Shown piece by piece: positions 55,014 to 58,853 of a DNA stretch of 64,000 nt. The first letter of the stretch is position 1, and every line of letters begins with the position of its first letter. Both the position numbers and the translations under genes were made by a program. The notes below the pieces were generated by a model. That model was not told where the DNA came from, did not search any database, and worked only from the letters and a program-made list of their open reading frames with translations. The stretch is taken from positions 16,087 through 80,086 of the forward strand of contig JAJEHG010000065.1 of assembly GCA_022823825.1 (NCBI GenBank), read 5' to 3'. The stretch comes from Nitrosopumilaceae archaeon (lineage in GTDB: Archaea > Thermoproteota > Nitrososphaeria > Nitrososphaerales > Nitrosopumilaceae).

Positions 55014-55021
55014 GTTAAATT
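55014..55021 (+). promoter_or_regulatory. TATA-like box for tRNA-Leu
   Basis: GTTAAATT about 28 nt before the first tRNA base at 55046. Confidence 0.6.
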
Positions 55022-55045: not shown

Positions 55046-55166
55046 GGAGGAGTAATCAAGCCTGGCCAAAGCAAGCCGCAACGGCTTTTGGACATGCAGG
55101 ACTTAAGATCAAACATGGGCGATCCTGTCTCTCAGGAGTTCGTGGGTTCAAATCCCGCCTCCTCCA
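55046..55166 (+). tRNA. tRNA-Leu (anticodon UAA) with two introns
   Basis: Acceptor GGAGGAG (55046-55052) pairs with CTCCTCC (55159-55165), discriminator A55166; CCA is not fully encoded. T-arm GTGGG-TTCAAAT-CCCGC (55142-55158), long class II variable arm, anticodon TAA at 55104-55106 in the CAGGA/TCCTG stem. Two insertions must be removed to fold it. Intron 1, 55072-55093 (22 nt), lies in the D-arm and forms an ideal bulge-helix-bulge (CCAA/TTGG helix, 6-bp hairpin AAGCCG/CGGCTT). Intron 2, 55108-55121 (14 nt), is at canonical position 37/38 with helix CUUA/UGGG. The spliced tRNA is 85 nt with a perfect 3-bp D-stem. Confidence 0.9.
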
Positions 55167-55300: not shown

Positions 55301-55603
55301 ATGAAAATGGGCAAACCGCCGGCTTGGCCCGCCGCATCATCGACTGCCGTATCGCTTGCAGGTATCGCATGCATGGTGCTAGGGGCCCTGATCATGACGT
55401 TTGACTATCCGCAGATCGAGTACCTGGGGGGGTTTGACGCGGACGCGGCGACGGTAGCCATGGGAGACCCGGAGCAGAGATCGCTGCATGGCCGGCTTGT
55501 AACAGAGTTTGCCGTCGGGGCCGCAATATTTGGCGCGGGCATCATAATGTGCGTGCCCAAGACAGCCTCAGTACTGCGCCGCGGTAGACGGCATGTCAGA
55601 TAA
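55301..55603 (+). CDS. Two-span membrane protein of unknown function
   Basis: 100 residues from ATG 55301. Two hydrophobic helices (STAVSLAGIACMVLGALIMTF and TEFAVGAAIFGAGIIMC) around an acidic loop, with a basic tail (LRRGRRHVR). The track's start at 55238 precedes the TATA-like box. Its 3' end overlaps the converging pheT gene by 36 bp. Confidence 0.7.
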   Translation: MKMGKPPAWPAASSTAVSLAGIACMVLGALIMTFDYPQIEYLGGFDADAATVAMGDPEQRSLHGRLVTEFAVGAAIFGAGIIMCVPKTASVLRRGRRHVR

Positions 55604-57382
55604 CTGCAGGTCAGACAGTGACACCTCAAATCCGGCTGCCGGAACCCTGATTCTATACGCAGACAGTATGGCGGGGTCTATCTCGCCCGCGTATCCTACG
55701 ACGCGGCGGCGGCGGCCACCGCGCGCGCGGCTCCCGCCCGCACTATTGGCGGTAGCGATGGAGACCTTTGCACACCTGCCGTCTGCAAACAGGTGATGCG
55801 ACGCAGGCACGGTGCGCATCTCAGCCGCATCCGAAGTGACCGCACCAAGGACGGTCTGCAGCACGGACTTTGCCTCCGAAAAGCCCGAATCAGCGTGCGC
55901 CGTGATGGCCGCCACGTGCATCATTTCAGACACGGGGGAGGCGTCAGCCGGCTGCCTGCCGGAACCCGCCGCCCTGCGCCCGCCTCTCAGGAATACGGTT
56001 CCGGTCTCGTACAGCTTCTGGGGGTACTCCTCGTGTATGTTCCGGGACAGGTTCTCTACGAGCCCGGGGAGTATCGAGTCGCGCAGCACAGAATGCTCGC
56101 GGCTCTTCGAGTCGACTGCCGCGATCATGCGGCTCCGGGGAGGCGTCCGGCGGCCTGCCATCTCATACAGTATGCGCGCGTTGCTCAGACCGGGGTTGAG
56201 TGCCTCGACATACCCCATCCCGAGCATCGCCATGTCGATCGCGTCATGCGGAGCCGACGCGGCGTCCTTGGCCCCGAACGTCGTGGACGGCGACAGTTCG
56301 GGCAGTATGCGCCACGTTCCGTATCCCAGGGCAATCTCCTCGACCAGGTCGACCTCCGACACAATGTCCGGCCTGTACGGCGGCACCAGGCACGGTATGA
56401 CGCCGTCCCCGCCGTCTTGGCCGCGGCCATCCTGCGGCACGGGCTGCAGCCTGCACCTCTCAAGGCACGACGCCGCATCAGACACGGACAGCCCCAGCCC
56501 GAGCATCTCGTTTGCCCGCCCCACCGATACCGGTATGGTGCGGTTCTCGAGCGGCGGGGTCCTGTTCCGGCCGCCCCCGATCCCGATCCGCTCCAGGGAG
56601 AATCCCGCGGCGCGCAGCGTTATAGCCACTATGGCAAGGGCGTCCTCCGCCGCATGCCGGGATACGCCTGTCACATCCACAAAGATGTCAGTCGTGCCAG
56701 CCGTAACCGCAGTCATTGCCGAGTTTATAATCGGGGGCATCGACACGGTGTTGCCGCCGCCGTCAAGGATGACGGGGAACCTTTCATGCCCCTCTACCAG
56801 GTGGCCGTACGCGCGGCCCGCCTTTGTCCCCTTTATGATCTGGGATATCGTCATCTCCTCCGTCTCGTTCAGCGGCACGAACCTGTGGCCCGCGGGCACG
56901 GCCGTATACGTGAGTGGAAACCCGCCGGATATCTTTGACGCGTCGTGCAGCCCTATGGCGACCTTCCTGCGGCCGCGGCCCAGCCCGACGTGCAGGTCCT
57001 CCTGCAGCGTGACCAGCTGCCGCAGCATGTGGTCGTCAAGCGCCCCGCCCCTTGCCAAGATTCCCGTGATGACCGGGCGCACGCCTGCCACAGTACGCTT
57101 TGCCACTATCCGGTACGGCCCCGACGGGGCGGGACCCGCATCAAGCGGCACCAGTCCCCCCCTGACGCCGAGCAGACCCTGCAGCGCAAGCGAGACCCCC
57201 ACGTCGGTGGCATAGTCCGGCCTGTTGGGGCTGTACTCTATGCGCACCGAGTCGCCGTCATCGGACTCTATGTCAAGCCCCAGGTACGGGAGTTTCTCGG
57301 ATATCTCGTCTCGCGACACGCACGTGCCGCCGCGGGACACCAGCCCCGCCAGCCTCTCGTACGACAGCTCCACTACCGGCAT
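55568..57382 (-). CDS. pheT: Phenylalanyl-tRNA synthetase beta subunit
   Basis: 604 residues, archaeal/eukaryotic size. Recognised by MPVVELSYERLAGLVSRGG, LDIESDDGDSVRIEYSPNRPDY, the B5 domain RTIPVSVGRANEMLG and EVDLVEEIALGYGTW. A Gly/Asp/Gln insert (QDGRGQDGGDG) breaks the B5 region and an Arg/Gly tract (GGSRARGGRRRR) sits near the C-terminus. ATG directly follows the pheS stop. Confidence 0.94.
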   Translation of the reverse strand: MPVVELSYERLAGLVSRGGTCVSRDEISEKLPYLGLDIESDDGDSVRIEYSPNRPDYATDVGVSLALQGLLGVRGGLVPLDAGPAPSGPYRIVAKRTVAGVRPVITGILARGGALDDHMLRQLVTLQEDLHVGLGRGRRKVAIGLHDASKISGGFPLTYTAVPAGHRFVPLNETEEMTISQIIKGTKAGRAYGHLVEGHERFPVILDGGGNTVSMPPIINSAMTAVTAGTTDIFVDVTGVSRHAAEDALAIVAITLRAAGFSLERIGIGGGRNRTPPLENRTIPVSVGRANEMLGLGLSVSDAASCLERCRLQPVPQDGRGQDGGDGVIPCLVPPYRPDIVSEVDLVEEIALGYGTWRILPELSPSTTFGAKDAASAPHDAIDMAMLGMGYVEALNPGLSNARILYEMAGRRTPPRSRMIAAVDSKSREHSVLRDSILPGLVENLSRNIHEEYPQKLYETGTVFLRGGRRAAGSGRQPADASPVSEMMHVAAITAHADSGFSEAKSVLQTVLGAVTSDAAEMRTVPASHHLFADGRCAKVSIATANSAGGSRARGGRRRRVVGYAGEIDPAILSAYRIRVPAAGFEVSLSDLQLSDMPSTAAQY

Positions 57383-58831
57383 CTACGCGTCGTCCCTCCG
57401 CCTCGCGCCGCGCAGCCACCCCAGATTGTTCGCGTAAAACTCCCGTACGTCGTCCACGCCGTACTTTAGCATTGCAATGCGCTCCACCCCGCCGCCCCAG
57501 GCCAGCACGGGGTGCTTCAGTCCCCGGGTCACGTGCGGGTGGAATATGCCCATGCCGAACAGCTCGACCCACTTGCCGAGCCTCTCGTTGTATACCATCG
57601 ACTGGAAGGAGGGCTCCGTATACGGGAAGAAGGTGGGCCAGAACTTTACCTTTGTGAGCCCGAGCCTGCGGTAAAACTCCTCCTGTATCCCCATCAGGCC
57701 CCGTATGGTGGAGCCGGCCTCGTGGACCACGCCCTCCACCTGGGTGAACTCGGCCAGGTGCTTGTAGCTGGTCTTTTCGTTCCTAAACACGCGCCCAAGT
57801 GAAAATACCCGCGCGTCGCCCAGGACGCCCGGCGACTGTAGGAGGCGCCGCAGCGTGACGCAGGTGGTGTGCGTGCGCAGCACCATTCTCTCTGCCTCCG
57901 CGGCGTCCCACTTCTGGTGCCACGTGTCGCGGTGCGCCTTTGAGATGCGCCTGACGTGCGCCGGCGTCGAGTCGAGTTCGCCCGGCTCAACGTCCAGGTA
58001 GAACGTGTCCTGCATCTCCCTTGAGGGGTGGTCCTGCGGGGTGAGCAGCGCGTCAAAGTTCCAAAAGCACGGCTGCACCACGCGGCCGGACGCCTCTGAG
58101 AACCCCATGGTGACAAACACCTCCCTTATTTCGGATATGACCTCTTTGAGAGGGTGCCTGCGCCCGCGCGGCGCGGCCGGCACGCCTGCCCCCACGTCTA
58201 TCGCGCCCGCATTGGCCTCCCGGCCCTCGTCGTACGACGCGTCGACGGTTCGGGCGGCCTCGGACAGAGAGACGTGCTTTGTCTTTGTGACGGTCTTTGT
58301 GACGAGCTCGGGCCGCCGGAGCAGCGATTTTAGATCCGAGGAGTCCACCGACTCTGCGCTTATGGGGCCGCCTCCGGCGCCCGCAAGCGCGCGCAGGGTG
58401 GCCTCGCCGGGCAGCACGCTTGGGATGTTCCCGGGCGGGGCGGCGGATATGACGGTGCGCCCCTTCGCGGACACCGCGGCGGCCCACCCGCTTTTCTTTA
58501 CAATCCCCATGGCCGCCCCAAACAGCGGGCCCATGCCGTCCCGAAGATCCGATATCTCCTGCGGGCCTCCCTTCAGCAGAATGTCCAAGAGCCGCCTTTC
58601 CGGAAGCGTTGTGTCAGGAAGGCGCATGCCGTTTCTGCCCAGTGATATCGTGGCCTCCTCGGACTCCGACACCTCGGCGAGCCCCTTGTGGCGCAGCCAC
58701 TCGACCCCGCGGCGAGCCTGGTCGAGCGAGAGCCCGGCAGAACCGGCCAGTCTGTCAATCGACTGGCGCGGCTCGGAGCGGAGGGACGAGATTATTTTTT
58801 TCTCTATTATGTGCAGTACCATCTCTGGCAT
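57383..58831 (-). CDS. pheS: Phenylalanyl-tRNA synthetase alpha subunit
   Basis: 482 residues from ATG 58831. Contains N-terminal winged-helix repeats (SLRSEPRQSIDRLAGSAGLS) as in archaeal PheS, then the class II core: HPLKEVISEIREVFVTMGF, QDHPSREMQDTFYLD, RVFRNEKTSYKHLAEFTQVEG and GGGVERIAMLKYGVDDVREFY (motif 3). An insert-like tract (EANAGAIDVGAGVPAAPRGR) precedes motif 1. TATA-like box about 27 nt upstream of ATG 58831. Confidence 0.95.
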   Translation of the reverse strand: MPEMVLHIIEKKIISSLRSEPRQSIDRLAGSAGLSLDQARRGVEWLRHKGLAEVSESEEATISLGRNGMRLPDTTLPERRLLDILLKGGPQEISDLRDGMGPLFGAAMGIVKKSGWAAAVSAKGRTVISAAPPGNIPSVLPGEATLRALAGAGGGPISAESVDSSDLKSLLRRPELVTKTVTKTKHVSLSEAARTVDASYDEGREANAGAIDVGAGVPAAPRGRRHPLKEVISEIREVFVTMGFSEASGRVVQPCFWNFDALLTPQDHPSREMQDTFYLDVEPGELDSTPAHVRRISKAHRDTWHQKWDAAEAERMVLRTHTTCVTLRRLLQSPGVLGDARVFSLGRVFRNEKTSYKHLAEFTQVEGVVHEAGSTIRGLMGIQEEFYRRLGLTKVKFWPTFFPYTEPSFQSMVYNERLGKWVELFGMGIFHPHVTRGLKHPVLAWGGGVERIAMLKYGVDDVREFYANNLGWLRGARRRDDA

Positions 58832-58853
58832 TGAACGCCGGGGGGGACGCAAG

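Follow-up and report, generated by a model that had tools for sequence, protein, structure and literature searches.

A tRNA-Leu(UAA) gene interrupted by two bulge-helix-bulge introns in a Nitrosopumilaceae archaeon

The interrupted gene and its restored tRNA

On direct reading of the sequence, the window (the whole 64-kb stretch of DNA from an ammonia-oxidising archaeon that we analysed) encodes a tRNA-Leu(UAA) on the plus strand at 55046-55166, interrupted by two introns. Joining 55046-55071, 55094-55107 and 55122-55166 yields an 85-nt class II tRNA with the anticodon UAA, the acceptor stem GGAGGAG/CTCCTCC, the D-stem ATC/GAT, the anticodon stem CAGGA/TCCTG with the loop CTTAAGA, the T-stem GTGGG/CCCGC and a variable arm. 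Exon 1 (55046-55071), delimited like the other two exons from the sequence and with ARAGORN, carries the 5′ strand of the acceptor stem, the 5′ strand of the D-stem (ATC), the D-loop and position 23; it is nearly identical in relatives that lack the introns, where position 22 differs (A to C). Intron 1 (55072-55093; 22 nt, CAAGCCGCAACGGCTTTTGGAC) lies at a noncanonical site in the D arm, between positions 23 and 24, and is identified by the empty site in ten congeneric genomes and by a covarying hairpin. Exon 2 (55094-55107) contributes the 3′ strand of the D-stem (AT), position 26, the 5′ strand of the anticodon stem, the anticodon TAA (55104-55106) and G37. Intron 2 (55108-55121; 14 nt, ATCAAACATGGGCG) occupies the canonical position 37/38; it was recovered by ARAGORN after removal of intron 1 and is absent from the intronless relatives. 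Exon 3 (55122-55166) supplies the 3′ strand of the anticodon stem, the variable arm, the T arm, the 3′ strand of the acceptor stem and the discriminator A73. Upstream on the same strand, a TATA-like box at 55014-55021, where AAC(T/C)GTTAAAT is conserved in relatives, is a putative promoter. Genes for both putative subunits of phenylalanyl-tRNA synthetase, judged by sequence resemblance, adjoin the gene on the minus strand (window 55568-58852).

ARAGORN detected no tRNA in the raw 64-kb window, and the unspliced gene on its own likewise escaped it. When both introns were removed, a tRNA-Leu(taa) was reported; when intron 1 alone was removed and introns were allowed, ARAGORN reported a tRNA-Leu(taa) with a 14-nt intron between ttaag and atcct, which is exactly intron 2. 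Removal of intron 2 alone left no tRNA detectable by ARAGORN. Excision of both insertions thus restores a standard tRNA, as seen with ARAGORN on the spliced gene and in natural intronless homologues. A sequence-only reading of this DNA had described a twice-interrupted tRNA-Leu(UAA) with 22-nt and 14-nt insertions at these positions, and both ARAGORN and the empty sites place its boundaries right to the base; its 85-nt class II product with a perfect D-stem, anticodon stem and variable arm is likewise borne out by the ARAGORN call on the spliced gene. In Rfam, the only tRNA or tmRNA match was a sub-threshold one to tmRNA (23.9 bits versus a cut-off of 47), which we rejected, as it reflects the shared acceptor and T arm and is a by-product of the interrupted tRNA.

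Searches of the window's genome, in an assembly that is 89.6% complete, found no second, intact Leu(UAA) gene, which the sequence-only reading would have regarded as counter-evidence. The other Leu genes found there read CAA, GAG, CAG and UAG, which leaves the gene at 55046-55166 as the sole UAA gene identified; none of these four showed the D-arm intron. The tRNA-Leu(CAA) gene (L210:59-156; G000:C61) has an 11-nt insertion, ATCCGTAAGTG, after G37 at 37/38, which is shorter than intron 2. Elsewhere in the genome, ARAGORN misses a tRNA with an apparent D-arm insertion, probably Arg(CCU), at L214 (G000:C20:7200-7400). At L215 (G000:C52:22630-22800), detection was limited to the 3′ portion of a tRNA, and CTCCAGA upstream suggests a tRNA-Trp(CCA) with a long canonical intron.

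Bulge-helix-bulge motifs and the splicing endonuclease

Both introns show a 4-bp helix flanked by two 3-nt bulges, the bulge-helix-bulge (BHB) arrangement, with intron 2 the weaker of the two. In BHB 1 (55066-55094), which is supported by sequence, covariation, motif scan and folding, the central helix pairs CCAA (55066-69) with TTGG (55088-91) between the bulges AGC and ACA, and encloses a 6-bp inner hairpin, AAGCCG/CGGCTT, with the loop CAA. BHB 2 (55102-55122), identified from the sequence and its evaluated structure, is a relaxed motif with the helix CUUA/UGGG, the bulges AGA and CGA and a 7-nt terminal loop in place of an inner helix. Its pairs (C-G, U-G, U-G and A-U, that is, one G-C, one A-U and two G-U) are weak, and the pairing is supported by some relatives, for example L027 and L120, in which this position reads CUUA/UAAG-like.

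BHB 1 had been called ideal. This description holds only for its core, because the outer helix, CCUG/CAGG, is interrupted by extra unpaired bases and is drawn from the same nucleotides as the anticodon stem, so that the two compete. A scan for the core shape (4-bp helix, 3-nt bulge, 6-bp hairpin and a loop of 3-7) gave one perfect 4+6-bp match in the window, BHB 1 itself, versus ∼0.6 expected per shuffled 64-kb strand; the shape alone is therefore insignificant in 64 kb. What makes BHB 1 significant is that it is conserved and lies within a tRNA, where it accounts precisely for the bases that have to be removed. Evaluated energies were −34.6 kcal/mol for both BHB cores together with the anticodon stem and −32.1 for BHB 1 with its outer helix. 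As these energies allow the two cores to form alongside the anticodon stem, the order of splicing is not forced, and we rejected an obligatory order. For this sequence the energy model prefers a 5-bp register, CCAAA/UUUGG, which we also discarded, since relatives with GGGCAC or GGATA hairpins permit CCAA/TTGG only. A better fold that keeps the inserted bases had been named as a possible objection; folds that keep them form the BHB 1 hairpin.

The window's genome, like most of its relatives, contains two tRNA_int_endo (PF01974) genes (G000:C12 and C17), paralogues of which one is catalytic and one structural. The α protein (192 aa) matches crenarchaeal endonucleases at up to 1.5e-42, aligns with the crenarchaeal catalytic subunits 3p1z, 3ajv and 2cv8 over most of its length and retains the stretches DFAVY, DHAPY and VRK, which contain the active-site Tyr, His and Lys. 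In the β protein (220 aa), the FRVY/fold region is retained and the His is absent. The host encodes both halves of a tRNA-splicing endonuclease of the (αβ)2 type, the assembly state being predicted. According to a review (PMC4090602), Thaumarchaeota have α2β2 endonucleases that are lenient in substrate. The view that such introns need a broad-specificity endonuclease is supported.

Conservation across the class and intronless relatives

In a DNA search of 61 related genomes, most members of the window's genus had the gene and both of its introns. In a scan of 400 genomes of the class, using two patterns that differ in spacing only, the D-arm-intron form was present in 228 genomes and the intronless form in 18, and none of the 400 carried both. 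A pattern scan of genome contigs gave at least 119 stretches; among the matches listed, all were titled thaumarchaea or Nitrososphaeria, and these included Nitrosopumilus, Nitrosarchaeum, Nitrosotalea, Nitrosotenuis, Nitrosopelagicus, Nitrosocosmicus, Nitrososphaera and Nitrosothermus. Gene finders untuned to archaeal introns thus miss the UUA-decoding tRNA in much of the class. Among relatives, the length of intron 1 ranges between 13 and 27 nt (most often 22 nt), and intron 2 is mostly 13-17 nt, reaching 35-40 nt in a few. One relative (L139) retains intron 1 only and another (L247) a 40-nt intron 2 only, showing that each intron can be lost or gained without the other.

These distributions bear on how unusual the gene is. 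The D-arm intron is widespread in the class and looks ancestral rather than unusual, and intron 2, described as very small, is near the usual length for this gene and longer than the insertion in tRNA-Leu(CAA). Of the two introns, intron 1 is noncanonical and intron 2 canonical in position. The special value of the gene as a test substrate is accordingly weaker than had been stated. Two genomes from another family within the class (G062:C11:59040-59086 and G066:C4:123621-123667) have a tRNA-Leu(UAA) with a D-arm insertion of a different sequence, CCAAC...CGGGGGC. It is lacking in their relatives G078 and G084, and may have been gained independently at almost the same site.

The hairpin of intron 1 varies while CCAA/TTGG and the 3-nt bulges are retained. 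Among 104 unique intron-1 regions, the 5′ bulge is invariably A-G/T-N. For the first four hairpin pairs of 99 unique introns, 342 of 396 cells held standard pairs, whereas 2000 shuffles that redealt the 3′ arms averaged 265 and never exceeded 287; shared ancestry inflates this score. The compensatory changes, such as AAGCC/GGCTT, GGGCA/TGCCC, AAACT/AGTTT and AAGCG/CGCTT, indicate a structure kept by selection across relatives. The invariance of TTGG is partly built in, because TTGG was in the search pattern for many loci; with the class-wide long-form pattern, which does not require it, TTGG was still present in nearly all matches listed.

Ten congeneric genomes, among the 18 with the intronless form, have a tRNA-Leu(UAA) gene with exactly the predicted exon joints, and ARAGORN reported all ten as ordinary tRNA-Leu(taa) of 86-89 nt. 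In nine of them tRNA-Thr(GGT) is visibly adjacent, as in intron-bearing relatives. In one (G023), the gene lies beside this same tRNA-Thr(GGT) and has neither intron (GGAGGAGTAATCAAGCCCGGCCAACGATGTAGGACTTAAGATCCTATC...); the locus is a natural empty site for both. These intronless genes independently prove both intron boundaries.

Predicted splicing, its alternatives and joint intron absence

We are almost certain that the locus is one functional gene for tRNA-Leu(UAA), and that its precursor, containing two BHB introns, is spliced by the (αβ)2 endonuclease. The gene would be transcribed as a precursor containing both introns, and the endonuclease would cleave every 3-nt bulge of both BHBs after its second nucleotide, at AG-C and AC-A for intron 1 and at AG-A and CG-A for intron 2 (hyphens mark the cuts). 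An RNA ligase, which in archaea is RtcB, would join the exons to the 85-nt class II tRNA, and the mature tRNA-Leu(UAA), once charged, would read UUA codons.

If the locus were instead a pseudogene, broken by two small insertions and out of use, its escape from standard ARAGORN would be expected. However, the same two insertions occupy the same places in most of the genus and in related families, the exons are nearly invariant, the hairpins show covariation and the genome (assembly 89.6% complete) yielded no other UAA gene, which makes a disused gene extremely improbable. It is also very unlikely that intron 1 stays unspliced, the canonical intron alone being removed and the tRNA working with an enlarged D arm. 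Although a stable hairpin could be accommodated there as an extra arm, the insertion splits the D-stem ATC/GAT, intronless relatives show exactly the predicted joint, and the persistence of CCAA/TTGG and both bulges despite hairpin variation is what recognition by the endonuclease predicts. In cyanobacteria and plastids, tRNA-Leu(UAA) hosts a self-splicing group I intron (PMC4033280), but the chance of such an intron here is negligible: introns of 22 and 14 nt could not contain a catalytic core of ∼100 nt, and no Rfam intron family matched at the gene.

Splicing of two BHB introns would place the gene among known systems. The available part of the tRNAscan-SE 2.0 paper (PMC8450103) reports multiple noncanonical tRNA introns in Thaumarchaeota, 107 by its count, and a dedicated BHB covariance model trained on them; these introns come from the same phylum and have the same motif type as ours, and that part of the text does not name a thaumarchaeal tRNA-Leu(UAA). 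In Candidatus Caldiarchaeum subterraneum, tRNA-Leu(UAA) has more than one intron, and D-arm introns are among the tRNA introns of this organism (PMC3293823). This gene is multi-intron like the present one but belongs to Aigarchaeota, and its intron positions are absent from the text of that paper, so the likeness is one of multi-intron state, and homology to intron 1 would be conjecture. Thermoproteales (Pyrobaculum, PMC3218864) have up to three BHB introns per tRNA, canonical and noncanonical as here, linked to a heterotetrameric enzyme, but with far more introns per genome; their introns have apparently transposed between tRNAs (PMC4033280), whereas here the D-arm intron is unseen in the other four Leu genes. 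Given the published noncanonical thaumarchaeal introns and the multi-intron Caldiarchaeum tRNA-Leu(UAA), the present gene is a case of archaeal BHB tRNA splicing of an already published type, and it adds no new mechanism.

Less ordinary is the joint absence of both introns in at least two Nitrosopumilus-type lineages. We compared the intronless alleles of the ten genomes (L237-L246) with intron-bearing alleles (L003, L004, L007 and L020) at orthologous loci in the genus. On a pheT tree of eight intronless and 19 intron-bearing genomes, a single-gene tree with some unstable rows, the intronless alleles are not monophyletic, and well-supported branches force at least three changes. By their flanking sequences they group with two distinct sets of intron-bearing relatives, yet their exons have A22C in common, as well as a C-G to U-A change in the anticodon stem. 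This pattern suggests gene conversion, acquisition of a copy lacking the introns, or convergence. Of these, convergence once the BHB constraint had been lifted is a reasonable competitor of the other two, because C22 is frequent both in intronless Leu(UAA) elsewhere and in some other Leu tRNAs. Only tentatively, and with considerable doubt, do we propose that both introns were lost together in at least two separate lineages; the exact joints, same exon substitutions and lineage-specific flanks would fit replacement of the gene, through very short gene conversion, by an intronless copy that was foreign or derived from a spliced, mature tRNA, rather than stepwise deletion. The other Leu isoacceptors were rejected as donors of the intronless allele, as none has its D-arm sequence. 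Intron-bearing and intronless alleles of one gene provide a clean comparative set for archaeal tRNA intron loss and endonuclease specificity.
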